64,000 nt of DNA from Streptomyces caeruleatus (lineage in GTDB: Bacteria > Actinomycetota > Actinomycetes > Streptomycetales > Streptomycetaceae): NCBI RefSeq assembly GCF_001514235.1, contig NZ_KQ948936.1, positions 1 to 64,000 of the forward strand, in the 5' to 3' direction. The notes below the pieces were generated by a model that was not told the origin of the DNA, made no database searches, and saw only the letters and a program-made list of their open reading frames with translations. Positions 14,971 through 28,851 of this stretch are shown piece after piece. Position numbers and translations under genes: made by a program. Each line of letters opens with the position of its first letter. Position 1 is the first letter of the stretch.

Positions 14971-16347
14971 CTACTGCCCTTGGCGCGGAGGCTGTTGGGT
15001 GTAGGGGTTGGGGTGCTGCGGAGACTGTCCCGGAGGTGTGGGGTAGCCCTGATTGGGAGCTGTGTTGGGGTACCGCTGATAGCCCGTCGGGGGCTGAGGC
15101 GGGTATCCCGTGCCGTGGGGAGGAGTTCCGCCGCCGGAGCCGGGGCCACCGTTACCGCCGTTTCGGCGGCTGCGGATGACAGCGAAGAGGATGCCGATGA
15201 CGACCACGGCGCCTGCGATGCCGGCGATGAGAAGGATGCTGCCCGAGGAGGACTTCTTCTTTTTCTTGGCGGCCTGGCTCTTGCTGTCGTTGTCGTCGGA
15301 GGCGGCGCCTGAGTTCGTGGACGTGGACGGCGAGGACTGGGCTAGGGGGCCCTGCTTGGAGCCCTTGGGGATGTCCTTGGTCAGCGCCGCGTACGGGCGG
15401 ATGATGCCGTAGCCATACTTTTCGTCCGGTACTTTCTTGACGTCTTCGTCGAGGAACGTGGCTGATTTGATCAGGCGGTTGACGACCTGGCCTGCGGTGA
15501 GGTTCGGATACTTAGCTCGGACCAAGGCGGCAGTTGCAGAGACATAGGCGGTTGCGTCGGATACTCCGCTACCCTCAGCGTAACCGTTGGAATGGCTGGT
15601 ATCTGCTCTGGCAATATTTGCACCGGGAGCAGCAAGCGTCACTCCGGGACCGTAATTCGAATCCTTCCAAACGTTCAACGACTCATCAATAGCACCTACT
15701 GCTACTACGCCGGGAAGTTTGGCCGGATACTCCAGACCTTCGATTCCATCATTTCCTGTTCCTGACACAACAACGACATCATGTTGCAGTGCATACGCAA
15801 TTGCCTCGGCCCCCTTAGAGCCTGGCAAGGCGGTGGCGTCAGCAAAGGACAGATTGATCACATCTGCACCTTGATCAACCGCGTATCGGACTCCAGCCGC
15901 CCATTCCTCGTTAACGTAGTTCTCACTAACGGAATCAGCGACCTTGATTGGAAGGATCTGGGCCTTCGGCGCCAGTCCCATGACGCCTGCTGAACCGTTC
16001 GCGCCATGCCCGTGGCCGGCGATGATACTCGCCATGCCGGTGCCATGACCATCAGGGTCATCCTGAGGGCCTTCGCCGTTCGCCGTGAAGTTCTTGCCCT
16101 TCAGTACCTGGCCAGTCAGGTCAGGGTGATTGCCGTCCACTCCTGTATCGACGACTGCGACTGTGACACCTTGCCCCTGTGATTCTGTCCAGACCTTCTT
16201 GAAGTCGATGACGTCGATAACCCACTGCCTGTCGCGGATGTAATCCGCTGAAGCACTGGGAGCCGAAGTGAGGAGCAAGGCCCCCGTCAACGCCACGACG
16301 CCTGTCGTGGACCAGACTCGCTTGAAACCCAATTCCTTGCTCCTCAC
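14971..16347 (-). CDS. mycP: mycosin (ESX-associated S8 serine protease), copy B
   Basis: A 458-residue protease with signal peptide (1-34), S8 domain (about 45-320), a Ser/Lys-rich linker, a membrane anchor (about 378-398) and a Pro/Gln-rich cytoplasmic tail of about 60 residues. Catalytic Asp is in VAVVDTGVDGNHPD, His in DGHGTGMASI, oxyanion Asn in SGTGNDG. The Ser region reads GSGVSDATAYVSATAAL: the usual GTSxAxP is changed to GVSDATA, keeping Ser but losing Thr and Pro. The protease may be active with altered geometry. It lies downstream of the WXG genes at 16419 and 18025 and is the second of three mycosins. Confidence 0.92.
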   Translation of the reverse strand: MRSKELGFKRVWSTTGVVALTGALLLTSAPSASADYIRDRQWVIDVIDFKKVWTESQGQGVTVAVVDTGVDGNHPDLTGQVLKGKNFTANGEGPQDDPDGHGTGMASIIAGHGHGANGSAGVMGLAPKAQILPIKVADSVSENYVNEEWAAGVRYAVDQGADVINLSFADATALPGSKGAEAIAYALQHDVVVVSGTGNDGIEGLEYPAKLPGVVAVGAIDESLNVWKDSNYGPGVTLAAPGANIARADTSHSNGYAEGSGVSDATAYVSATAALVRAKYPNLTAGQVVNRLIKSATFLDEDVKKVPDEKYGYGIIRPYAALTKDIPKGSKQGPLAQSSPSTSTNSGAASDDNDSKSQAAKKKKKSSSGSILLIAGIAGAVVVIGILFAVIRSRRNGGNGGPGSGGGTPPHGTGYPPQPPTGYQRYPNTAPNQGYPTPPGQSPQHPNPYTQQPPRQGQ

Positions 16348-16418: not shown

Positions 16419-17993
16419 TTACTCGATTGTCCGCGGTACGTTGCGGTTGCGGTCCTCTTCCGAGATCCAGGTCTCTTCATCCTCGACCAGGTAGTCGGGA
16501 CGGTCACCCCGGCTGTTCTCGTCCTCGGGCCGTCGACCGTTTCGACCTGCCATGCCGCCGGCTCCGCCTGCCATGGCGCCGCGCTGGGTTCCACCGCGGC
16601 TACCGTGCAAGCCTGCGCCGCCACCAGCGCCCTTGCCGGTAACACCCTTGGCCGCACCGACCACACCACCACGGGACTTCGCGAGCGCTCCACGACCGCT
16701 GGCACCAGCGCCGCCTCGACCGGCGGCGCCAGATCCGGCGCCGCCCATCCCACCCATACCGGCTCGACCTCCGGCACCGCGACCTGCTGCAGCAGCACCA
16801 CCAGCCAGGCCGCCCCGAGTTCCAGCGGCTCCGACACCGCCGCGTGCGGCAGCGCCACCTCCGAGACCGGAAACTCCGCCAGGGGCCAAGCCGCCTGGCC
16901 CCTGAGTTGCGCCGGTCCCGAGGCCTCCGCCACTGACGCCGACAGGGCCCGTGCCGGGGCCAGTTCCAGTCAGGCCTGGAGAGATGCTGTCCACCTTCGT
17001 TCGGGCTGCCGGGAGCTGAGAACCTCCCGTAATGCCGGCATCTCGGGGCACCGCAGGAGCAGGCTTGATGTTGGTGGTGGGACCGGCGCTCCAAGGCTTG
17101 TTGGCCGCGCGAGCCGTGCCCGGCCCTCCTGTCGAAGGGCTCGGCATTGTGATCGGCGGAGGCATCGTCACATCGCTGTTGGGGGGCTGGATGCCCTTTT
17201 CGCCGTCGCGTCCGCTCCCGCCGCCGCCGGGAGGTTCCTGCCTTAGGTTCTTCCCATAGACCCTGTAGTTGGCCGCCAGCTGCTCCATCACCGCCATGGC
17301 CTGCAGACGACGCTCCATGCCCAGCGACAGGTTCTTCTCGTTCGCCTCGGCAACGGTGCTAGCGCTGACGCCCGCAGCCAGGTCCTTGTGCGCCTGGGTG
17401 TCATCGCGGTTGTCGTTGTCATTCATTTTGTCGCCCGCGCTCTCCAGCTTGGACGGTTCATGAATGTCTGCCATCTTGGTCTTAGCGGCGTCGAGGTCCT
17501 TGCTGATCGCAAAGAGTTGCTCCGCCGTGAAGTTGGCGTGTGCCGCCCCGTTCCGAATCTCGACGTCGATTTCGCCCGCCCGACGCTCAAATGCTTCGGC
17601 TGCTGAGCCTTCCCAGTGTTTGCGGACTTCTTCGACAGCTTTCTTGAGCATCCCGGCGACGCTGTCGTTCGCGGAAACCTGGTCCACACCACCGGTCGCG
17701 CCGTCACCGTCGCCACCGGACAGGATGTTGTGGACCATTTTCCAGTGGGTTCCAACCTCCGAAATCTTTCCGGGCTGGGAATCCATGATCATCTTGCGCA
17801 GACCGTTGACCGAGTACTCAACGAACGGCGTCTCCCCGTTCTCGGTCGCGCGGTTGTAGGGCACGTTTTTGCGTGCGACCTTGTCGGACTCAACGAGGCG
17901 GTCATGGTCGTTCTTCTGCTCGGCCGCCTGTTCCGCCTTCTGCCTTTTGTCCTGCTCTTGTGCGTAGTGATAGGTGACAGATGCCTCGGACAT
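16419..17993 (-). CDS. long WXG100/PPE-like putative ESX substrate
   Basis: A 524-residue protein with GGGGAG before the ATG. Residues about 60-250 are helical, with the WXG turn W127-E-G129 followed by SAAEAF. Residues about 255-495 are a low-complexity Gly/Ala/Pro region with many GG and RG blocks. The last 25 residues are acidic and ordered-looking (DYLVEDEETW ... DRNRNVP). Y501-LVE-D505 fits the YxxxD type VII export motif, placed at the very C-terminus. An N-terminal helical module plus a Gly-rich body resembles EspB/PPE-type secreted proteins. Likely partner: the small helical protein at 18025, which is 31 bases upstream. Confidence 0.83.
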   Translation of the reverse strand: MSEASVTYHYAQEQDKRQKAEQAAEQKNDHDRLVESDKVARKNVPYNRATENGETPFVEYSVNGLRKMIMDSQPGKISEVGTHWKMVHNILSGGDGDGATGGVDQVSANDSVAGMLKKAVEEVRKHWEGSAAEAFERRAGEIDVEIRNGAAHANFTAEQLFAISKDLDAAKTKMADIHEPSKLESAGDKMNDNDNRDDTQAHKDLAAGVSASTVAEANEKNLSLGMERRLQAMAVMEQLAANYRVYGKNLRQEPPGGGGSGRDGEKGIQPPNSDVTMPPPITMPSPSTGGPGTARAANKPWSAGPTTNIKPAPAVPRDAGITGGSQLPAARTKVDSISPGLTGTGPGTGPVGVSGGGLGTGATQGPGGLAPGGVSGLGGGAAARGGVGAAGTRGGLAGGAAAAGRGAGGRAGMGGMGGAGSGAAGRGGAGASGRGALAKSRGGVVGAAKGVTGKGAGGGAGLHGSRGGTQRGAMAGGAGGMAGRNGRRPEDENSRGDRPDYLVEDEETWISEEDRNRNVPRTIE

Positions 17994-18024: not shown

Positions 18025-18390
18025 CTAGCTCTGCGCCAGCCGACCCTTGGTAGAGCCGCCCGAGTCGCCCCCGACGCCCTTCTTGATCTCATGTTCCTCG
18101 TTGTTGTACCTGTCCCGGACCTTCGAGGTTTTCGTGCTGAAGTCGTCGATCAACTCGTGGAGGCTCTTGATGATGCCCTCGATCTTGGTCTTCATTTCGG
18201 TCGCAGCACCGTGGAGATTCTTGGCCTCCTGGAACATAACTTCGCCACCAGTCTGACCGAAGGCGTGTTCCGGAATTGCCGTGTCGTACTTCGACGTGTT
18301 GCCGGCCTTGTCCATGTCGTCCAACAACCGCCAGAGCTTCCGGATGACCTCATCCAGCTCGCTCAGATCAACCCGCATGCCGTTACTCAT
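18025..18390 (-). CDS. WXG100-superfamily small protein
   Basis: A 121-residue helical hairpin protein. The turn region is FGQTG (44-48) instead of WXG. The C-terminal helix carries Y95-NNE-E99, a YxxxE export motif, followed by a Gly/Lys-rich tail. It is encoded just upstream of the long WXG gene at 16419 and downstream of the core mycosin at 18446, and looks like the short half of a long/short ESX substrate pair. Confidence 0.75.
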   Translation of the reverse strand: MSNGMRVDLSELDEVIRKLWRLLDDMDKAGNTSKYDTAIPEHAFGQTGGEVMFQEAKNLHGAATEMKTKIEGIIKSLHELIDDFSTKTSKVRDRYNNEEHEIKKGVGGDSGGSTKGRLAQS

Positions 18391-18445: not shown

Positions 18446-19936
18446 TCATCGCCCAAGCCCGCTGACGGACTGCCCGGATCCCGTAGACCGTCGCGACCGT
18501 CCGGTCGATGCACCTCGCCCGGCCGAACCACCCCGCCGACTACGCCAGTCCCGCACAGCAACCCCGCTCCCCGCAACCACAAGCGCCAGAGCAAGTCCCG
18601 TACCCAGCACATAAATAGCCACCCGGCGTTCGCGCTCCGCCTCGCTCTCGCCCATGGTCACCGCCATCGGGATGACCGCGCTTCCCCCGCCGGCCGCGAC
18701 GAGCGGATCCGGCTTCGGGGTCTCGCCCGGTGTCGATTCCTCCGACAGCGCGGCGACCGGGTCGACGACGCCCCAGCCGATGAAGGGGTTGGCCTCGCGG
18801 CCGGGGCGTTGGGCGGTTTCCTCGATGCGGGTGGCGATCTGGGCGGCGTCCCACTCCGGGTACTTCTGCTTCAGCAGGGCCGCGACCCCGGCGACGTACG
18901 GCGCCGCGAAGCTCGTGCCGTCGGCGGTGCACTGTCCGCCGCGGGGGACCGTGGAGACCATGCTGACGCCGGGTGCGGCGACGTCGACGAAGTCGCCGGC
19001 CTGTGAGAAGGGGGCGCGTTCGTCGTTGCGGTCGGAAGCTGCCACGGCCAGAACGCCGTCGTAGGCGGCGGGGTAGGTCTTCGCGAACTTGCCGTCGGCT
19101 CCGTCGTTGCCCGCGGCGGCGATAATGAGGGCGCCCTTGCGCACGGCGCTCTCCACGGCCGCCCGCAGCGTGTCGTCGTCCTGCTTGTTCTGGGTGTCCG
19201 ACGAGATGTTGATGATCTTCGCGCCGTCGGCGACCGCGTCCCCGATCGCGTCGGCCATGGTTCCCGCGTCGCCCTGGCCCTTCTCTCCCTCCCCACCCGT
19301 GTAGCGGTAGGACAGGATGTCCGCTTCCTTGGCGATGCCGACGAAGCCCGTGCCCTTGACCGGCCGGGCGGCGATGATGCCCGCCACCCGGGTGCCGTGC
19401 CCCTCGATGTCCTGGGTGCCGGAGCCCCCCGGGACGTAGGACCTGCCGCCGGACACCGCATCGGTCAGCTGCTTGTTGGACTTGTCGACACCCGTGTCGA
19501 TCACCGCGACCTTGACGTCCTTACCCGTCGCCTGTTCCCACAGCTGGTTCAGGAGGATCCGCTGCAGCGACCAGGGCGTGGACTTGATGACGTCGCCGCC
19601 GAAGACGCATTCCGAGCTGTCGGCCAGGCCGAAGCGGGCGTGGCCGCTGTCGGAGTCACCCGAGTCGGAGCGGCCGGAGGCGGAGTTGGCCGAGTCCGCG
19701 AGGCGGGTGGGAACCGCCGAGTCAGCCCGGGACGCCGGAAACGCCGGGGACGCCGGAACCACAGGTAGCGTCGGTTCCGCCACGGCCGGCGGCGCCGACG
19801 CGAGGCAGATCCCCGTCGCCGCGAGCACGCCGAAAGCCCGCTGCAGTGCGCGGGTTCCACCGTTGCGGCCGGCGCGGCTACGCGAGCGGGCCGTGCTGCC
19901 CACCACGTTCAGGCCCACCACGTTCAGGCCCCTCAT
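18446..19936 (-). CDS. mycP: core mycosin (ESX-associated S8 serine protease), copy C
   Basis: A mycosin of about 496 residues if ATG 19936 is the start; in-frame starts exist 15 bases inside and up to 20152, so the N-terminus is uncertain. A basic region and signal peptide precede PPAVAEP, then a Ser/Asp/Ala-rich spacer, and the S8 domain with Asp in VAVIDTGVDKSN, His in EGHGTRVAGI, Asn in AAAGNDG and a classical Ser motif DGTSFAAPYVAG. A membrane anchor (AIYVLGTGLALALVVAG) and an Arg/Ser/Gly-rich tail end the protein. It lies next to the WXG100 pair and eccB and is therefore the best candidate for the structural mycosin of this ESX complex. Confidence 0.92.
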   Translation of the reverse strand: MRGLNVVGLNVVGSTARSRSRAGRNGGTRALQRAFGVLAATGICLASAPPAVAEPTLPVVPASPAFPASRADSAVPTRLADSANSASGRSDSGDSDSGHARFGLADSSECVFGGDVIKSTPWSLQRILLNQLWEQATGKDVKVAVIDTGVDKSNKQLTDAVSGGRSYVPGGSGTQDIEGHGTRVAGIIAARPVKGTGFVGIAKEADILSYRYTGGEGEKGQGDAGTMADAIGDAVADGAKIINISSDTQNKQDDDTLRAAVESAVRKGALIIAAAGNDGADGKFAKTYPAAYDGVLAVAASDRNDERAPFSQAGDFVDVAAPGVSMVSTVPRGGQCTADGTSFAAPYVAGVAALLKQKYPEWDAAQIATRIEETAQRPGREANPFIGWGVVDPVAALSEESTPGETPKPDPLVAAGGGSAVIPMAVTMGESEAERERRVAIYVLGTGLALALVVAGSGVAVRDWRSRRGGSAGRGASTGRSRRSTGSGQSVSGLGR

Positions 19937-20179
19937 CTCTTCAGGCCCCCAGGGCTTCCTTGCTTCCTTCGAAGCTGGGTCATGTGTGTGTCGCGGGTGT
20001 TGCGACGTGTGTGAATGTTTGCGGAATTTGCTGTGTGCATCCCCGTAGAACCCCGTAGGGGATTCCCGCGGTTCCGCAGAAGCTGTGGAGGCCCCCGAAG
20101 CAGAGGACGGCCCAGCGGACGCTGTGGCGTCGGCTGGGCCGAATCTCTTCATCTCATGCCCCTTGGGCCCCCGACGGGC

Positions 20180-20464
20180 TCAGCTCCACGTACCGGCGTT
20201 GCTCTTCTCCGTGGCCTGGTAGTTCTCGGCAGCGCTCTGCAGCGCCGTCGAGATCTTCAGCAGGGTGGCGTGCAGGTCGGCAGCGGTCTTGTCCCACTCG
20301 CGCTGCTTGCGCTGGTAGCCCTCCTGCGCCTCACCCTCCCAGGTGCTGGCGACGCGCTTGACCGCGGCCTCGAGGTCGTCGAGCTGCTGCTTGATGCGGC
20401 CGGCGGTGGACTTCACGTCCGTGGACGCGTTGGTGATCGTTGCGTAATTGACGAGGATCGACAT
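20180..20464 (-). CDS. WXG100 protein of the core ESX pair (EsxA/EsxB type)
   Basis: A 94-residue WXG100 protein: two helices joined at W42-E-G44, and Y82-QAT-E86 as the YxxxE export motif near the end. The start is the second of two close ATGs (20464), since AAAGGG lies 7 bases before it; the first ATG abuts that site. It lies 132 bases downstream of the second WXG100 gene at 20597, and the two form the EsxA/EsxB-type heterodimer that in Streptomyces coelicolor is secreted and affects development (known from that species, inferred here). I cannot tell which is EsxA and which EsxB. Confidence 0.92.
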   Translation of the reverse strand: MSILVNYATITNASTDVKSTAGRIKQQLDDLEAAVKRVASTWEGEAQEGYQRKQREWDKTAADLHATLLKISTALQSAAENYQATEKSNAGTWS

Positions 20465-20596
20465 CGTCATTCCCTTTCAGGATGGAATCGAAGGAAGTCT
20501 GGGGGATCAGGACGATCCGAAGGACTCAGGAGCATCCAGCGAGGGCTGAAGCTCTCCCGGAACTCTCCCGGAGCTCTTCGGGCCGGTACGGCTCGA

Positions 20597-20908
20597 TCAG
20601 CCGAAGTCCGACATGATCTTGCTGATCTCGGCGTTCTGCTGCTCTTCCGACGCGGAGTAGTTGCTCCGCGTGGAGTCCACGGCTTCCTTGATGTCGTTGA
20701 GGATGTCGCTCATCCTCTTCGCGTCCTGGTTCCAACGATCCTGCAGCTGGCGGTAGGACTGGGCCGCCTGGCCCTTCCAGCCGCCGGCGATCTGGTCGAT
20801 CACGCCGTTGAGACGGCGGATCTCGCCCTGCAGCTGACCGTTCGCGGTGTTGATGTCGCCCGAGAGCTTGGTGAGTTCGTCCTCTGTTACCCGGAACTGG
20901 CCGGCCAT
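20597..20908 (-). CDS. WXG100 protein of the core ESX pair (EsxA/EsxB type)
   Basis: A 103-residue WXG100 protein: helix-turn-helix with W44-K-G46 and Y84-SAS-E88 as the YxxxE secretion signal, ending KIMSDFG. ATG 20908 is preceded by GGGGAAGG, and the longer upstream frame has no such site. It is first in the pair with the gene at 20180 and follows eccB at 21128 after a 219-base gap that probably holds the promoter for the pair, allowing higher expression than eccB. Confidence 0.93.
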   Translation of the reverse strand: MAGQFRVTEDELTKLSGDINTANGQLQGEIRRLNGVIDQIAGGWKGQAAQSYRQLQDRWNQDAKRMSDILNDIKEAVDSTRSNYSASEEQQNAEISKIMSDFG

Positions 20909-21127
20909 GATGAACCTTCCCCCATGTCGTCGTTGATCCGGGAAACCTGTACCGGTACCCGGACGAGTGCTTCGCACGCTTGAGCGCTGCAAACACTCTA
21001 TCGTCAGCCTGTCACTCAACCACAGGCAAGACCAATCAGTTACACGGCTCACACACTTGAGCGATCATCCTGTGACTCTCGCGCCGTCTTGCTCTCAAGT
21101 GCGTGCGCCCGTACGTCTGTTGGCGGC

Positions 21128-22723
21128 TCACTGACTCTGTTCCTGCGCGGCGCTGCCGGTGTCCAGAGTGGGCCCCTTCGGGATGAATGCCGCCCACGTC
21201 TGCGGCACGATCGCGGGCCTCGACACGTCCTCGTAGCCAAGTCGCGTACGCGCCTTGTCCGTTTCGCTGGCGTCGCCGCCGGAGGAGTCCGAAGCGCCCG
21301 AGGACGAGTCGCTGCCCGATCCCTTCGCCGCGCTGTCGTTGCTCTTCGGCAGCGAGTAGCGCAGGCCCGTGTCCGTCAGCAGGTACTGCCCGCCGCCGCC
21401 GGCCGCCGCACCGGTGATCTCCGTAAAGAGGAGGCCCGAGCCGGAGGAGACATAGGCGCTGAGCGAGTCGGCGATGACCCTCTTCGGGTACGCCGTCCCG
21501 GCCCAGGCGGCGAGTTGCGGCTTGTTGTCCTGGCCGATGGTGCCGTTGTAGACGCTGCACGAGGTGGTACGGGCCTCGCTGCTCGCCGTGGCTGCGGGGT
21601 TGGCCTGCTGCGGGACGGTCTGGGGCCAGCCCTGGGCCTGGTAGAAGCGGTTCGCCTCGCCGCGGTTGGCTGTGGTGATGGTCTGGGTGTCGACCTTGAT
21701 GTCGTCGATCGGGTTGGTGCCGTACGCCGTCTGGGCGGAGGGCGATGCCTTGAGCAGGGCGGCGACGAAGGGCGAGATGGCGGCGATCTGGTCCTTGAGG
21801 ACCACGTAGTACTGCTCACCCTGCGCGTCCGGCGCCTTGAGCACCCGTCCCACCGTGCTCGCCTCCGGGGGGAGCCCCTGGAGCGAGGTGGCCTCGCCGA
21901 CGGACGGCACCTTCGGGAAGTCGATGACGCCGCCTTCGTTGAAGGTGTGCAGCCACTCACGGCTCACCGGCTGCGGCTTGGCGTCCCGGCCGAAGACGGC
22001 AGACCGCAGTTGCACCATGGTGGCCGGGTCGAGACCCGCCTTGTCGCCCAGCAGGAACAGGTTGCCGTTGCCGTCGACCAGGAATTCCCGCCTGGTCTGG
22101 CTGTCGATCACGTACAGGGCCTCACGGTGGTCGACCTTGCCCGCGTTCTTGACCGACTTGGCGTCGTCGGAGTCGAAGACGAAGACGGCACGGTCGATAG
22201 CGTTGGCCGAACCCTCGACGGGGCGCTCGCACACCGCCCAGGTCTTCGCCTTCGCCGCGTCGTCCTTGGACGGCAGCCGGTCGGGGGCGTACGGAATGCC
22301 GATGGTCGCCCCATGCCGGATCCCGCTCTTGTCGATCTCCTTGCCGGGGACCTCCAGCACGCTGCCCTTGCCCTTGTCGAGCAGCAGCTTGGCGGAGGCG
22401 TAGTTGAGGACCGGGTGGAGGACCTTCTCCACCTTGCCGTCCTTGGGGTCCGGGTCGAGGACCACGTACCGCGTCGTCGAGTCGCTGTCGACGATGATGT
22501 ACTCGCCCGGGGTGTCCCAGCCCTTGGGCGCCGTGGGCTTGATCACGCCCCAGGCGATGAAGCCGATGACCAGCACCAGGCCCACACCGAGGCTGGGCAT
22601 CACCGTACGGATGGGACGCGGAGCGCCTTCCTCCGAGCCGCCCGGCGACGGCGCCAGGAACGCCGCGACGGTGCGCTTGCGAGCGAACGTGTAGGCGGCG
22701 AGCTCATCCCGACGCTTTGCCAT
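21128..22723 (-). CDS. eccB: EccB, ESX membrane-complex component
   Basis: A 531-residue type VII secretion core protein. The N-terminus MAKRRDELAAYTFARKR is typical of EccB; one membrane segment follows (about 40-62) and the remainder is a large extracytoplasmic domain with repeated beta-rich modules. Two Cys (WAVCERP and TTSCSVYNG) probably make the family disulfide. In mycobacteria EccB joins EccC, EccD and EccE in the inner-membrane hexamer and contacts the mycosin. The C-terminal 60 residues are Ser/Gly/Asp-rich before a final conserved-looking stretch. It is divergent from eccE and upstream of the WXG100 pair. Confidence 0.95.
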   Translation of the reverse strand: MAKRRDELAAYTFARKRTVAAFLAPSPGGSEEGAPRPIRTVMPSLGVGLVLVIGFIAWGVIKPTAPKGWDTPGEYIIVDSDSTTRYVVLDPDPKDGKVEKVLHPVLNYASAKLLLDKGKGSVLEVPGKEIDKSGIRHGATIGIPYAPDRLPSKDDAAKAKTWAVCERPVEGSANAIDRAVFVFDSDDAKSVKNAGKVDHREALYVIDSQTRREFLVDGNGNLFLLGDKAGLDPATMVQLRSAVFGRDAKPQPVSREWLHTFNEGGVIDFPKVPSVGEATSLQGLPPEASTVGRVLKAPDAQGEQYYVVLKDQIAAISPFVAALLKASPSAQTAYGTNPIDDIKVDTQTITTANRGEANRFYQAQGWPQTVPQQANPAATASSEARTTSCSVYNGTIGQDNKPQLAAWAGTAYPKRVIADSLSAYVSSGSGLLFTEITGAAAGGGGQYLLTDTGLRYSLPKSNDSAAKGSGSDSSSGASDSSGGDASETDKARTRLGYEDVSRPAIVPQTWAAFIPKGPTLDTGSAAQEQSQ

Positions 22724-23181
22724 GGTCCCCGTGTCTCCCGTTTGTGATGCTCGATCGTGTTGCGGTGTCCGACCGCGACCGTGATGTCCGACCGCGACCG
22801 CGACCGCGATGTCCGACTGCGACCGTGACGTCCGGCATTGTCCGGGCCCGCCGTACCGGCAGGCCGACGCGTCAGGCCGACTGGGCCGCGCAGGCCCCTA
22901 CTATGCCTTGCGCCGCCGGGCGACGATCCATCAGGTGTGCGGCCGCCCCCGCATCTTCACAGAGCTTCACCACAGCGCTCCACCACGCGGGGTCGGTCCA
23001 TGACAGGCTGACCACCTGGGTTTTGGGTGTCCCCTGTGTCGCCCGGTGTTCCGCAGCGGGTACCGTGAGCCACCCGTATGGATGTTGAGGGCCATCGGTG
23101 CCCCTGGCCCGTCGCCGGGATCTCGGACCTCTCGGACGCAGAGGATCCGGTCCGGCCCACGGCCACTACTTCGCGAAAGGG
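22724..23181. other. divergent intergenic region between eccB and eccE
   Basis: A 458-base region that must hold the promoters of eccB and eccE. It contains the tandem repeat at 22767-22829. No gene was found; open frames here lack ribosome binding sites and codon bias. Confidence 0.55.
22767..22829. repeat. 19-bp degenerate tandem repeat
   Basis: Three units beginning GTCCGACCGCGACCGTGAT. The middle one is expanded by an extra CGACCG, and the start of a fourth follows. It lies 44 bases upstream of the eccB ATG, between divergent promoters. Confidence 0.75.
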
Positions 23182-24519
23182 ATGTCCCGGGGGATGACCA
23201 GCGCTACGAGCACTCGGCGCGGACGCCGCGCACAGCAGCAACAGGGAGGTCCGGGCGGCGGCAGACGTGCGTCGGCCACTCCGGCCGCGCCCACCGCCGC
23301 GTCGCCGCGCACGCTGCCCCGCCCGGGCGGTCTGGGCCCGGTACGGCTCCAGCAGCTCATCCTGGTGGAACTGGCGGCGGCGGTCATGCTGGCCGCCTGG
23401 GCCGCCGACCAGTCCTGGCTGCTGGTCCCGGCCGGCATCGTGGCAGCCCTGCTGCTGCTCCTGGCGGTTCTGCGCCGGGGCCGCCGTCCGCTGCCCGAGT
23501 GGTACGAGACCTCGCGCGCGCTGAGGCAGCGCCGCCGCGACGCGAAGCAGCCCGTGCCGCCGGGGACGGACGCGATGCTGGCGCCGGTCGTGGAGTGCGA
23601 CCCGGCTCTGCGGACGTACTCCTTCGTCTCCCGTGACGACCGCTCGATCGGCATGATCGGCGACGGCTCCTTCCTGACCGCCGTCCTCTTCGTCCAGCCG
23701 GGGGACCAGCCACTGCGTCCCGCGGCCGCCGACCGGCAGCTGCCGCTGCGGCTGATCCAGGACGCCCTGGAGGTCGACGGGATCCGTCTCGCCTCCGTCC
23801 AGGTCGTGCAGCACACGCAGCCCGCGCCGGCGCCGCATCTGCCGCAGCAGTCGCTGGCCGCGCGGTCGTACGGCCCCCTGCAGGCGCAGGCCGGTTCGCC
23901 CGCGCTCCGCCTCACCTGGGTCGCCCTCAAGCTCGACCCGGAGCTGTGCCCGGAGGCGGTCAAGGCGCGCGGGGACGGCGTTCCCGGTGCGCAGCGCGCG
24001 CTGCTGCGGGTGGCGGACCAGCTGGCCAGCCGACTGGCCGGGGCCGGCTTCAAGGCGACCATCCTGGACGAGACCGAGCTGGTGCAGGCGCTGGCGACGT
24101 CCAGCTGTCTGAACCCGCGCGCCAACGCGCAGCACTCGCAGGACGGGCGGACGCCGCAGCGCCGTACGGTCGAGGCGGTCCGCACCTGGCGGGTCGACGA
24201 CCGGTGGCACACGACGTACTGGGTGTCCCGCTGGCCGCAGTTGGGCAGTGGCGGTGTGGCGCTGCCCGAGCTGGTGACGCGGTTCACCTCGCTGCCCGTG
24301 CTCGCGACGACGTTCAGCATGACCCTGAGCAAGGCCGGCAACCGGGGTGTCGCCCTCACCGGGCACGTCCGGGTCACCGCTCGCGGTGACAGCGAACTCG
24401 GCCAGGTGGGGCGTGAGTTGGAGCGGGCCGCGAGTGCCGCGAAGGTCGGCCTGGTCCGTCTCGACCGGGAACAGGTCCCCGGAGCCCTCGCCACTCTGCC
24501 GCTCGGAGGTACGCACTGA
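23182..24519 (+). CDS. eccE: EccE, ESX membrane-complex component
   Basis: A protein of about 445 residues. The start is either ATG 23182 or ATG 23194 (GAAAGG at 23175-23180 fits neither perfectly). A Gln/Gly/Arg-rich N-terminus is followed by two membrane segments (about 52-73 and 76-98), the motif RRPLPEWYE and a mixed alpha/beta cytoplasmic domain of about 330 residues. This is the EccE layout: two N-terminal membrane helices and one peripheral domain at the outside of the ESX complex. Its stop overlaps the ATG of the next gene (TGATG), so the two are coupled. Confidence 0.9.
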   Translation: MSRGMTSATSTRRGRRAQQQQGGPGGGRRASATPAAPTAASPRTLPRPGGLGPVRLQQLILVELAAAVMLAAWAADQSWLLVPAGIVAALLLLLAVLRRGRRPLPEWYETSRALRQRRRDAKQPVPPGTDAMLAPVVECDPALRTYSFVSRDDRSIGMIGDGSFLTAVLFVQPGDQPLRPAAADRQLPLRLIQDALEVDGIRLASVQVVQHTQPAPAPHLPQQSLAARSYGPLQAQAGSPALRLTWVALKLDPELCPEAVKARGDGVPGAQRALLRVADQLASRLAGAGFKATILDETELVQALATSSCLNPRANAQHSQDGRTPQRRTVEAVRTWRVDDRWHTTYWVSRWPQLGSGGVALPELVTRFTSLPVLATTFSMTLSKAGNRGVALTGHVRVTARGDSELGQVGRELERAASAAKVGLVRLDREQVPGALATLPLGGTH

Positions 24520-25361
24520 TGTCCCACCCCGCCTCGACCATGCCCCCGGGGCAGCAGGGCCGGGCCCCCGGGCGCACTCCGGCTCACGTGGCCTCGCCCA
24601 CCGACACCGGCATGATCCCGATCATCCGGCAGCCGGAGGCACCGCAGCAGCAACGGCGCATCTTCAGCCCGGGGTTCGGGCTGCGCGGACCGCGCCGCAA
24701 CCGCCATGTCGTCACCGTCGACGAGCTCGCGGCGATCAGCATGCCGATCGGTGACGACGGCGTACTGATCGGCACCGACCCTGAGTCGCAGCCCGCGGTG
24801 CTCGGCCTTTCCCGGCCGACCCCGTTCGACGTCGTGCTCGTGGGTGGTCTGTGGCTCGCCCAGGTGCTGGCGTTGCGGGCGGCCGCGACGGGTGCGCGCG
24901 TGGGTGTCGAGACCGGCCGTCCGCAGGCCTGGCAGCAGTTGGCCCAGGCGGCGGGCGGCGGCCAGCAGTGCGTCACGGTCTATCCGGTGGGCCGGGTCCC
25001 CGCGCAGGGGCCGTCGGTGTCGAGCCCGGTCGTGCTGATCCGGGACTGCGGCATCCGCCCGCCGCGCGGCCGGGTGACCTCGGTGCCGTGGCAGGCCGTG
25101 GTGACGGTGCTGCCGTTCGTCAGTGAGCACGCGCCGCGCTGGTTGTCCCAGGCCCATCTGGTGGGGATTCAGCGCATCTCGCCCTACGAGACCGAGGCCG
25201 TGCGCGACACGCTGGGGATCCCGGAGGAGCAACTCCAGCACCTGCCGACCCTTCACGACGGCGTCGCCCTGTGGTGCACTCGCAAGCATCAGAAGTTCGT
25301 CATGACCGAACCCACCGATGCGGAGACGGGGCTGCTCGGCGTGGCCCGTCGTATGGACTGA
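24519..25361 (+). CDS. conserved ESX-linked soluble protein of unknown function
   Basis: A 280-residue protein translationally coupled to eccE. After a disordered N-terminus (about 1-60) comes a Rossmann-like alpha/beta core: VLLIG-like strand (FDVVLVGGLWLAQVLALRAAATGARVGVETGR), a second half (VVLIRDCG, VVTVLPFV) and a C-terminal helical part. No P-loop or DEAD-type motif is present. I do not know a mycobacterial ESX counterpart. The eccE coupling, and the ATPase gene next downstream, suggest a cytosolic regulator or docking factor of the ESX machine. It could also be a degenerate version of an ATPase fold. Confidence 0.83.
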   Translation: MSHPASTMPPGQQGRAPGRTPAHVASPTDTGMIPIIRQPEAPQQQRRIFSPGFGLRGPRRNRHVVTVDELAAISMPIGDDGVLIGTDPESQPAVLGLSRPTPFDVVLVGGLWLAQVLALRAAATGARVGVETGRPQAWQQLAQAAGGGQQCVTVYPVGRVPAQGPSVSSPVVLIRDCGIRPPRGRVTSVPWQAVVTVLPFVSEHAPRWLSQAHLVGIQRISPYETEAVRDTLGIPEEQLQHLPTLHDGVALWCTRKHQKFVMTEPTDAETGLLGVARRMD

Positions 25362-25686
25362 GAGGTCGTCGTCCCGGGAGCGGGGCGCGAACGGGGCCTC
25401 GGCCACGTGGTGTTACGAGATTTCGGCCACGTGGGGTGACGAGGCCTCGGTCACAGGGTGTTGCGAAGGCTGGGCCGCAGGGCGCTCCGTACGCACCATG
25501 AGGCCCTTCCGTCCACACACCCGGGGCTATAGCGTCCGCCCCCATGGGGGCTTTTCCGTCCCGCCATGCGAGTGATTAGGCTTCTGGTGGTGCGGTGACG
25601 ATCGCAGTCGCGTGGGACTAGCCACTCGGTCCGCCCGGCCGCGACGACGACCAGCTCAGCAGCAGTGGCTGACCAGGAGGCAAGCA
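25362..25686. other. intergenic region with repeats upstream of the EspI-like gene
   Basis: A 325-base gap. It contains the 24-bp tandem array at 25396-25489 and an AT-richer patch (TTAGGCT near 25577) that could be a promoter -10 region for the gene at 25687. Nothing looks coding. Confidence 0.5.
25396..25489. repeat. 24-bp degenerate tandem repeat
   Basis: Units start at 25396, 25420, 25444 and (weakly) 25469. They read approximately GCCTCGGCCACGTGGTGTTA followed by CGAG, with a CCACGTGG palindrome in the first two copies. The array is outside any called gene. Confidence 0.7.
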
Positions 25687-28600
25687 GTGAACAGGGATCG
25701 GTCCGAGTACAACGGCGGGAGCCCTTCCTCGGACGGGGACGATCACGAGGTGGATCTCACCGGCGAGTTCGAAATCGTCTACACACCTCCCGCCTGGTAC
25801 GCCCAAAGTACGCAAAGTGGTTCCTCGTCCGGTGAACAGCAGGACGGCGGCCGGCCCACGCCGCCCCCACCGACCGGTTCGCCCGTCGGGTCGCCCACCG
25901 GGCCGCCAGGCGCCGCGCCCCAGGGCCCGGGACCGCACACTCCCCCGGCGCAGCCGCCCGCCCAGGGGGTGCCTCAGCAGCAGCCGGCACCGCCCGCGCA
26001 GGCCACCCCGCCCCAGGGCACGCCGAACGCCGGCCAGCAGAACCCCGGCACGGGTGGCTACGGCTTCCCGCAGCAGCAGTCCGCGCCGGGCGCGCCCGCG
26101 GCCGGTGGGTACGGCTATCCCCAGCAGCCGGCGCCCCAGCAGGGCCAGGACACGTCCGGCGGGTACGGCTATCCCCAGCAGGGCCAGAACACCTCGGGCG
26201 GCTTCGGCGTCCCGCAGCAGCACTCTCCTGCCCAGCCGCCGGCCGCCACCCCCCAACAGCACGCTCCCGCCCAGGCACCCGGTGCGCCGGGCGCCCCCGG
26301 CTTCCCCGTGCTGCGCCCCGTGGACCCGGACGCCCAGGCGGCCCCGGCCCCCACCGCCACCCCGGCGGCCGGGGTCCCGGCGCCGCCCGCGCCCGAACCG
26401 CCCGCCCCCGCACAGCCGGTGGCGGAGCCTGAGCCGGAGCTCAACCACGCCGCCGCCGACGCCGAGGCCGCCCGCCTGTTCGGCGACGACGACGAGGACG
26501 TGGAGCCGGAGGAGGAGCGCAACGACGAGGCGGAGTCGGCCGACTCCACCGGATCCGTCGCCGTGACGGACGGCACGGCAGGCATGGCAGGCGCGGAAGG
26601 CGGCGAGTCGGCCTCCGCCGCCCAGCCCCAGCCCCCGGCCGCCGCGGTGACGCCGGAGCCGGAGCCGGAAGGAGCCGCGGACGCGCAGTCCGCGCCCGTA
26701 CCCGCTGCCCCCACCGCTCCCGCCCAGCCGCCCGCGCCCGAGGGACAGCAGCCGCAGCCCCAGTCGACCGGACAGGTCCCGCTGCCGCCGCAGGCGCAGC
26801 CCGCCCCACCGGCACCGGAGCAGCCGCAGGTGCAGCCCCCCGTGCCGCCCCAGCCCCAGCCCCAGCCCCAGCCCCAGCCCCAGCAGGGTCTCCCTCCGCT
26901 GCCTCAGGGCTTCGCACCGGCCCACCCCGCCCAGGGAGCGCCGCAGCAGGCCGGGCAGCCCGACCCGCTGGCCGCCGCGGCCGCCGGCCAGGTCCCCGGT
27001 TACGGCTACCCCCACCAGGCTCCGGCGCAGCCGTACCCCGGTCAGCCCGCGCAACAGGCCCCGGCGCAGGGCGCGTTCGGCCTTGCCCAGCCGCAGCCCG
27101 GCTACCCGGCGCAGGGCGGACAGCCCGCGCCCGCCGACCCGCGCCAGGCGCACCAGCCCGGCGGGCCGCAGGCGGCCGGGTACGGCTACCCGCAGCAGGC
27201 ACCCCACCCGGGCCAGCCCCAGCCGCAGCCCCAGGCCGACGGGTACGGCTACCCGCCCCAGGCACCGCACCCCGGCCAGCCGCAGCCCGCTCAGCAGCAG
27301 CCGCAGCCCCAGCCGCACCCCGGCCAGCCCCAGCAGGGCCAGCCCCAGGCCGAGGGCTACGGCTACCCGCAGCCGCCGCAGCAGCCCGCGCAGCCCGGTT
27401 ACGGCTACCCGCCCCAGCAGGGCGGCTACGGCTACCCCCAGCAGCAGGCTCAGCAGCAGCCCGCCCCTCAACAGCAGCCGCCGGCCCAGCCCCAGCCGCA
27501 GGCGCCGCAGCAGCAACCCGCACCCCCGCAGAACCCGGCTGTCCCGCCCGCCGCCTACGGCAACCAGGGCCAGGGCAACCAGGGCTGGAGCGCCCCGCCC
27601 GGCCCCCAGGCCGGCCCCGGTGCACCCCAGCAGCAGCAAGCCGCGCCGGGAACTCCGCTCGGTTACAACGCCGCCGTGGAGCTGTCGTCCGACCGGCTGC
27701 TGCGCAACCAGCCCAAGGCCCGCAAGAACAACCAGGCCCCGTCCCGGTTCAAGCTCGGCGCCAAGAAGGAGGCGGCGGAGCGGGAGCGGAAGCTGGGTCT
27801 GATCCGTACGCCGGTGATGTCCTGCTACCGGATCGCGGTCATCAGCCTCAAGGGCGGCGTCGGCAAGACCACGACGACGATGGCGCTCGGCGCCACGCTC
27901 GCCAGCGAGCGCCAGGACAAGATCCTGGCGATCGACGCCAACCCGGACGCCGGCACGCTCGGCCGACGGGTGCGGCGCGAGACGGGTGCCACCATCCGTG
28001 ACCTGGTGCAGGCGATCCCGCAGCTGCACAGCTACATGGACATCCGCCGCTTCACCTCGCAGGCACCCTCGGGTCTCGAGATCATCGCCAACGACGTGGA
28101 CCCGGCGGTCTCCACCACCTTCAACGACGAGGACTACCGCAGCGCGCTCGACGTGCTCGGCAAGCAGTACCCGATCATCCTCACGGACTCGGGTACCGGT
28201 CTGCTCTACAGCGCGATGCGCGGAGTGCTGGACCTCGCCCACCAGTTGATCATCATCTCCACGCCCTCGGTCGACGGTGCGAGCAGCGCCTCGACGACGC
28301 TCGACTGGCTGTCGGCGAACGGCTTCGCCGATCTGGTCCAGCGGTCGATCACCGTGATCTCGGGTGTCCGTGAGACGGGCAAGATGATCAAGGTGGAGGA
28401 CATCGTCGCGCACTTCGAGACCCGTTGCCGCGGTGTCGTCGTGATCCCGTTCGACGAGCACCTCGCGGCGGGTGCCGAGGTGGACCTCGACATGATGCGT
28501 CCGAAGACGCGCGAGGCCTACTTCGACCTCGCCTCGGTGATCGCCGAGGACATCGCGCGCACCCAGCAGGGCTTCGGCAACCCGAACATGCAGTACCAGC

Positions 28601-28851
28601 AGCCGCAGCAGGGCTACCCGGAGCAGCAGGGGTACCCGGAGCAGCAGGGCTACCCGGCCCCGCAGCAGCAGCCCCAGCAGCCCTACCCCCAGCAGGGCGG
28701 CGCCCCGCAGCCGGGTCAGGGCTGGGGGCAGGCCCCGCAGCAGCCCGCGCCGGGCCAGGGCTGGCAGCAGCAGGCGCCGCCGCCCCAGGACCCGCAGCAG
28801 GGTCAGCAGCCCCAGCAGGGTTCCGTACCTCCCGGCTGGACGCAGCAGTAG
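25687..28851 (+). CDS. EspI-like ParA/MinD ATPase with giant Pro/Gln-rich arm
   Basis: GTG 25687 has a perfect AGGAGG 6 bases upstream. The product has 1,054 residues. Residues about 1-705 are disordered Pro/Gln/Ala sequence with many GYGYPQQ-type repeats. Residues about 715-960 are a SIMIBI ATPase of the ParA/MinD type with a deviant Walker [23 protein letters not shown] as the A'-type region and ILTDSGTG as the Walker B region. A second Pro/Gln tail with YPEQQG repeats ends the protein. The layout (Pro-rich arm plus P-loop ATPase beside ESX genes) matches mycobacterial EspI, a regulator of ESX-1. It probably acts in the cytosol on the ESX complex. It converges with ribF. Confidence 0.88.

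Follow-up and report, generated by a model that had tools for sequence, protein, structure and literature searches.

EccE is a core subunit of the ESX (type VII) secretion systems for which we know of no described activity, and its role in type VII secretion is, to our knowledge, unexplained. Here, we consider the gene that directly follows eccE in Streptomyces caeruleatus, within the first 64,000 nucleotides of contig NZ_KQ948936.1 (hereafter the window, i.e., the whole stretch of DNA that was analyzed). Its product, referred to as P0001, is a protein of 280 amino acids (aa) that is encoded, together with the stop codon, at 24519..25361 (+). The EccE encoded in the window shares its core with EccE3 and EccE5 of the ESX-3 and ESX-5 systems (6umm, 7b9f), which lack the C-terminal domain discussed below. 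The ESX-3 paper describes the EccE fold as weakly similar to glycosyltransferases, without a nucleotide pocket (PMC6986878); in the ESX-5 paper, EccE is described as a rim subunit that binds EccD, and one of the states shows the ATPase domains of EccC alongside both of these proteins (PMC8131196). Two further systems outside type VII secretion are relevant. The cmd cluster of S. coelicolor includes the VirB4-like CmdB and is akin both to SLP2 transfer genes and to the genes SCO6878/6880/6881; its null mutants are reported to sporulate late (PMC2782261). The second system is that of the CoCoNuT type III-A operons, in which an EccE3-like domain is fused to a VirB4-like ATPase in one protein; this is the nearest precedent that we found for an EccE-type fold beside a VirB4-like ATPase domain. 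It should be noted that CoCoNuTs have a defence context, not a type VII one, and that EccE is not called the N-terminal domain of VirB4 in the part of that paper available to us (PMC11090510).

We propose that EccE and P0001 together make up a VirB4-type subunit of the type VII system that is encoded by two genes, is catalytically dead, and has a probably structural function; the probability of this reading is roughly 0.7. It is likely that EccE is a homologue of VirB4 and that the P0001 gene encodes its ATPase half, detached and dead, such that the type VII systems of actinobacteria would hold relatives of both type IV ATPases. In this reading, EccC would be the active, VirD4/FtsK-like one, and the ATPase half would have been kept separate in Streptomyces, fused three times, and discarded in ESX-3 and ESX-5. 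In the accessible parts of the open-licence literature on EccE and VirB4, we found no statement of EccE as a VirB4 homologue, and no open-licence paper was found that treats EccE together with TrwK; a prior report elsewhere is possible.

Comparison of the gene pair with VirB4

The eccE gene occupies positions 23098..24519 (+), with the start codon taken from the call of the open reading frame (ORF) tool, and is recognized by TIGR03923 with 201 bits (cut-off, 108). The AlphaFold2 model of EccE had a mean predicted local distance difference test score (pLDDT) of 67.6 (59-68 among the five models), and approximately the first 80 aa were disordered. Foldseek searches with this model yielded 18 PDB chains at E<=1e-3, of which four were EccE3 or EccE5 and 14 were TrwK/VirB4. 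In the VIA-align comparison, EccE3 (Z 18.4), residues 12-379 of TrwK/VirB4 (Z 17.6; 3.6 Å over 255 aa), and EccE5 (Z 16.2) ranked highest, and the next unrelated matches were flavoenzymes with Z 8.8. Thus, the EccE core appears to correspond to the N-terminal domain of VirB4.

The model of P0001 was of lower confidence, with a mean pLDDT of 59.1 (approximately 75 in the core) and a predicted TM-score of 0.60; the other four models reached a pLDDT of 38-45. Both Foldseek and VIA-align placed P0001 in the HerA/FtsK superfamily. The best VIA-align match was VirB4 4ag5 (Z 15.7; 3.4 Å over 194 aa), followed by HerA (13.7), TrwK/VirB4 (13.3), TcpA (12.6), EssC 5fv0 (12.4), FtsK (12.1), and EccC 4nh0 (11.6). 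Short profile matches of the family alignment (A1) to adenosylhomocysteinase and UDP-GlcNAc 2-epimerase structures in the PDB were dismissed as chance, with a best E-value of 0.048. The position that the Walker A loop has in VirB4-like relatives, placed by the model and by a weak profile alignment of the N-terminal half, is occupied by residues 107-118 (LVGGLWLAQVLA; 24837..24872, +), and the Walker A motif (GxxxxGK[ST]) is absent in 117 of 117 family sequences. The strand at the Walker B position comprises residues 171-178 (VVLIRDCG; 25029..25052, +), in which D176 and G178 are present in all 117 sequences. The residue after D176 is C, A, L, M, S, or T, and none of these six types is acidic. 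ATP hydrolysis by P0001 is therefore very probably lost, because both the Walker A and the usual Walker B motifs are absent. An earlier note on this DNA, prepared from the sequence alone, had described a Rossmann-like core without a P-loop. The nucleotide-binding fold and the missing P-loop are supported by our analysis; the fold, however, is not a generic Rossmann fold and is closer to a VirB4/HerA-type P-loop NTPase core. Residues 1-60 form an N-terminal tail (24519..24698, +) of low model confidence and weak conservation.

We also compared profiles with hhalign. EccE aligned with the SCO6880 family over nearly the full length (99.3%, E 2.9e-20; positions 74-472 versus 8-484), and P0001 aligned with the ATPases encoded next to SCO6880 genes (91.0%, E 1.1e-6) over its last ~77 residues, i.e., a C-terminal block of approximately residues 204-280 (25128..25358, +). 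The set included 28 pairings. The positives were EccE-SCO6880, two pairings of the C-terminal domain (CTD) with the ATPases, and CTDall-CTDstrep; the remaining 24 pairings served as controls and did not exceed 0.8%. Decoys gave at most 0.5% (21 decoys of the partner ATPases) and 0.8% (21 decoys of SCO6880). Against the NCBIfam model of the SCO6880 family (NF042935), EccE scored 46.6 bits, under the cut-off of 60 bits. Judging from its sequence, EccE is a homologue of the SCO6880 family, and by the curated cut-off it is not a member.

Genes of the SCO6880 family were present in 40 of 41 relatives, and a P-loop ATPase gene directly followed the SCO6880 gene in 19 of the 20 loci that were opened (none was found by the rule in locus L177). 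One of these partner ATPases scored as AAA_10, CD1110-type VirB4-like, and TraC, and a PDB search at E<=1 yielded VirB4 4ag5 as the sole relative. Because of the profile matches between EccE and SCO6880, and between P0001 and the partner ATPases, eccE and the P0001 gene appear to mirror the pair of SCO6880 and a VirB4-like ATPase, with the ATPase half apparently dead. The two-gene layout is the same as in clusters of the cmd, SCO6878-6881, and SLP2 transfer types; however, the SCO6880-partner ATPases retain the P-loop (GESGNGKS etc.) and are located outside ESX loci, whereas P0001 is P-loop-less and is encoded in an ESX locus. In VirB4/TrwK, similarly, the ATPase domain resembles P0001 and residues 12-379 resemble EccE, but the pair in the window consists of two genes, has no Walker A motif, is located in a type VII locus, and has only 9-15% identity. 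In addition, the genome that contains the window has five matches to the SCO6880 family, and at least three of the four that were opened (L175-L178) precede an intact P-loop VirB4-like ATPase; this genome thus has several type IV-like gene pairs.

Coupling to eccE, and separate and fused forms of the domain

The ORF 24519-25361, presumably the counterpart of S. coelicolor SCO5718, is confirmed as a real gene. Its GC content per codon position (0.74/0.53/0.90) is as in Streptomyces genes, and the ratio of nonsynonymous to synonymous substitution rates (dN/dS, NG86) of 0.03-0.31 in eight of eight pairs indicates purifying selection; Pfam and NCBIfam searches with this ORF gave no family match. 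Coupling of the gene to eccE through a TGATG overlap, as suggested in the earlier note, is found at 24517..24521 (+), where the eccE stop codon TGA (24517-24519) shares a nucleotide with the ATG that begins at 24519. We analyzed 110 related loci, i.e., 30 from a genome search (including that of the window) and the best 80 of 166 from a contig search, the two sets partly overlapping. EccE was encoded immediately upstream of the P0001 homologue, on the same strand, in all 110 loci. With starts assigned by a mechanical nearest-start rule, the two genes overlapped in 105 of these (by 1 nucleotide in 73, including the window, and by 4 nucleotides in 32). The overlap is not a chance event, because the 1-nucleotide and 4-nucleotide forms recur among related loci. 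The proposed link to ESX genes holds as well: among 61 genomes of relatives, 42 contained both EccE and the studied protein, 17 contained neither, and two were discordant, namely G047, where eccE runs off the contig end, and G050. Genomes that lack both genes, including nine from the same genus, are informative absences.

The earlier note had known of no mycobacterial counterpart and had considered a Streptomyces-specific component. Neither statement is supported, since EccE itself contains the counterpart as its C-terminal domain, which is fused in mycobacteria and their relatives and is encoded by a separate gene in several other actinobacterial families, including the split loci of families f18, f26, and f43, as well as in all Streptomyces seen. 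A tblastn search of plasmids with P0001 produced 30 records (one from Streptomyces and 29 mycobacterial; E 1e-4 to 0.8). The mycobacterial matches fell within annotated eccE genes in 27 cases and within hypothetical proteins in two. The C-terminal 173 aa of EccE from a Mycolicibacterium crocinum plasmid matched 41 records, 36 of them across at least 80% of the query; among the 30 matches listed, 28 were on eccE and two on hypothetical proteins. Single ORFs of approximately 485-578 aa that combine the EccE core with the domain were found in M. crocinum (578 aa) and in five order-mates (L112, L113, L114, L118, and L119), and further fusions were found in two f34 genomes and on ESX plasmids. It should be noted that three of the fusions (L112, L114, and L119; f3 g3 order-mates) have a reduced EccE part, the core of which seems to lack its C-terminal half.

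We also surveyed 296 genomes of the class. The domain profile produced 60 matches of at least 26 bits; in 58 cases, an EccE match on the same strand immediately preceded the start of the domain, with gaps of -14 to 588 bp. The other two were a contig-edge fragment and an EccE fusion in G152, the core of which was detected only by a broader EccE profile (E 5.7e-10). In this survey, 100 EccE matches of at least 50 bits were kept and 31 weaker ones were left out. For the domain, 63 matches were kept (three of them below 25 bits, since they are beside EccE) and 39 others, none of them above 25.0 bits, were left out; most of the latter matched the profile only at positions 147-219, in ORFs that were approximately 475 aa long, and one that was examined is a VirB4-like ATPase. 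Together with the tblastn matches on mycobacterial eccE, the survey rules out a Streptomyces-only distribution. P0001 is the C-terminal domain of EccE encoded by its own gene, as both its position and its homology to the fused domain indicate.

The tail behind the EccE core was 0-49 aa long in 39 of 73 EccE places and 129-264 aa long in 34. Among the tail-less places are 30 of family f6, which is mycobacterial (these are ESX-3/ESX-5-like), along with loci in which the domain is encoded by a separate gene, and the alignment of EccE5 from the PDB to a fused protein stops where the C-terminal domain begins. Plasmid-borne, ESX-1-type, and ESX-2-type EccE (e.g., pRAW WP_050674727.1, pHP17a WP_023870333.1, and eccE of the M. 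crocinum plasmid) carry the same domain directly behind the core; there, however, the domain is fused and shorter, whereas in the window it is encoded by a separate overlapping gene and has a longer C-terminal half. In the ESX-1-type EccE of L136, L137, L202, and L203 (family f6), the tail is 129-134 aa long, the domain starts with PIGSAGVLVGE, and most of these tails are missed by the profile.

We also examined the split and fused states on a tree of 40 picked rows, one of them without the CTD, that was rooted with SCO6880 proteins. The EccE branch had a support of 100/99, and three changes between the split and fused states were required, with fusions in f6, f34, and part of f3. Separate genes are likelier to be the ancestral state, because the SCO6880 outgroup pairs are likewise separate genes; three fusions and one loss within f6 would have followed. 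Repeated fusion is a classic sign of two proteins that act in one complex.

The MinD-like ATPase and the surrounding locus

Downstream of the P0001 gene, an ORF at 25612..28851 (+) encodes a MinD-like ATPase of the SCO5717 family (NF041021, 56.4 bits; cut-off, 35) with KGGVGKT in its translation, which agrees with the EspI-like ATPase of the earlier note and is a candidate partner of P0001. In this protein, a Pro/Gln-rich region of approximately 700 aa precedes the MinD-like domain and is highly variable among related loci. An ATPase of the SCO5717 type was found no more than 4.5 kb downstream of the studied gene in 92 of the 110 loci; short loci and divergence may explain the misses. In family f6, a MinD-like ATPase was present within ~10 kb of 16 of 32 fused-tail EccE places versus none of 30 tail-less places (Fisher, 2.7e-6; the places are not independent). 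Two pairs of places (L201 and L205) share one ATPase in this count, and several regions stop at contig ends. In the farther flanks of 18 regions, EspI-like ORFs were found in three of nine extending ESX-1-type loci (G333, G120, and G181, the last already counted in the ~10-kb survey) and in none of nine beside CTD-less loci. A universal partnership with EspI/SCO5717 was dropped in view of the f6 fraction and of its absence in both f34 places and in all five split places of f18, f26, and f43. Docking of such ATPases is a reasonable second role of the domain, although not a universal one, because a MinD-like ATPase accompanies half of the fused and none of the tail-less EccE in f6, and follows the studied gene in Streptomyces. 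The M. tuberculosis ESX-1 and ESX-2 loci, we assume, carry Rv3876 and Rv3888c.

The other neighbors are eccB (21128..22723, -; TIGR03919, 167 bits; PF05108), two WXG100 genes of the EsxA/EsxB type (20180-20470 and 20597-21052, both -; TIGR03930, 73 and 74 bits), a mycosin (18446..20152, -; TIGR03921, 335 bits), and a second mycosin (14971-16347, -; TIGR03921, 292 bits). With these genes and the SCO5717-type ATPase as its context, the pair is not located in a type IV secretion locus. Two ORFs between the mycosins, 16419-17993 (-) and 18025-18390 (-), had no Pfam or NCBIfam match; the former (524 aa) has a Gly/Ala-rich C-terminal half, the latter (121 aa) is WXG100-like in size, and both are candidate substrates.

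Alternative explanations and possible function

Three other explanations of P0001 should be considered. It might be an accessory or docking protein confined to Streptomyces that has no more than the operon in common with eccE and is related neither to EccE nor to VirB4, as could be supposed from the separate gene in all Streptomyces seen and the lack of a Pfam or NCBIfam family. This is very improbable, given that fusions with EccE in three clades already contradict it, as do the tblastn matches on annotated mycobacterial eccE and the VirB4-like fold with its profile match. A degenerate ATPase domain of the EccC/FtsK (VirD4-like) type, i.e., a fragment that EccC lost or that arose from it by duplication, and no relic of VirB4, would be compatible with the presence of EssC, FtsK, and EccC among the fold matches (Z 11.6-12.4); the score of VirB4 4ag5 is, however, clearly higher, the sequence matches beyond the family are VirB4-like (L125), and the protein follows EccE, which has the VirB4 N-terminal fold, as the ATPase follows SCO6880. 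We regard such an origin as unlikely. Somewhat less unlikely, but still doubtful, is that P0001 continues to bind a ligand, either a nucleotide in another mode or a different small molecule, and serves as a switch through which EccE/EccC or the SCO5717 ATPase would be informed of the energy state. The residues R120, G125, W138, D176, and G178, invariant in A1, suggest a conserved site and not a bare scaffold, and the last two of these are retained in all 117 family sequences, as noted; nevertheless, the Walker A motif is missing from the same 117 sequences, and the conserved residues may instead serve the binding of EccE.

Several points weigh against a dead VirB4-type subunit as well. The structure model of P0001 is moderate, and the sequences behind it are all of the Streptomyces type (57-94% identity). 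Firm sequence homology to VirB4-like ATPases is limited to the last ~77 residues; when compared with these ATPases by itself, the N-terminal half reached 11.2%, which is not firm (31 decoys, <=1.1%). Mycobacterial fused domains are shorter, and their second half is divergent. ESX-3 and ESX-5 function without the C-terminal domain, and type VII secretion as such therefore does not require the domain. The link to MinD-like ATPases is partial, and its rows share loci and ancestry.

If EccE and P0001 do form a VirB4-type subunit, they would be built like the second type IV secretion ATPase, starting with two membrane helices at the N-terminus, continuing with the N-terminal domain of VirB4 (EccE), and ending with the RecA-like ATPase domain of VirB4 (P0001). 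The overlapping genes would be translated together, and the two proteins very probably bind each other. The dead ATPase-fold module would then be located at the translocon rim, on the side of EccE that faces the cytosol. Given the position of EccE in ESX-5, such a module would be well placed to shape the arrangement of EccC. Its most likely job would be structural, i.e., to organize neighboring subunits or the ATPase domains of EccC as they move; the module may, in many systems, also serve as a docking site for the MinD ATPase of the EspI/SCO5717 type.

If this reading is correct, it would bear on the origin of the type VII machine and its kinship to type IV conjugation machines, and the role of EccE would become testable with the help of the large VirB4 literature. 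The mycobacterial EccE of the ESX-1 and ESX-2 types would be predicted to bear an overlooked pseudo-ATPase domain that is invisible to the structures of ESX-3 and ESX-5.
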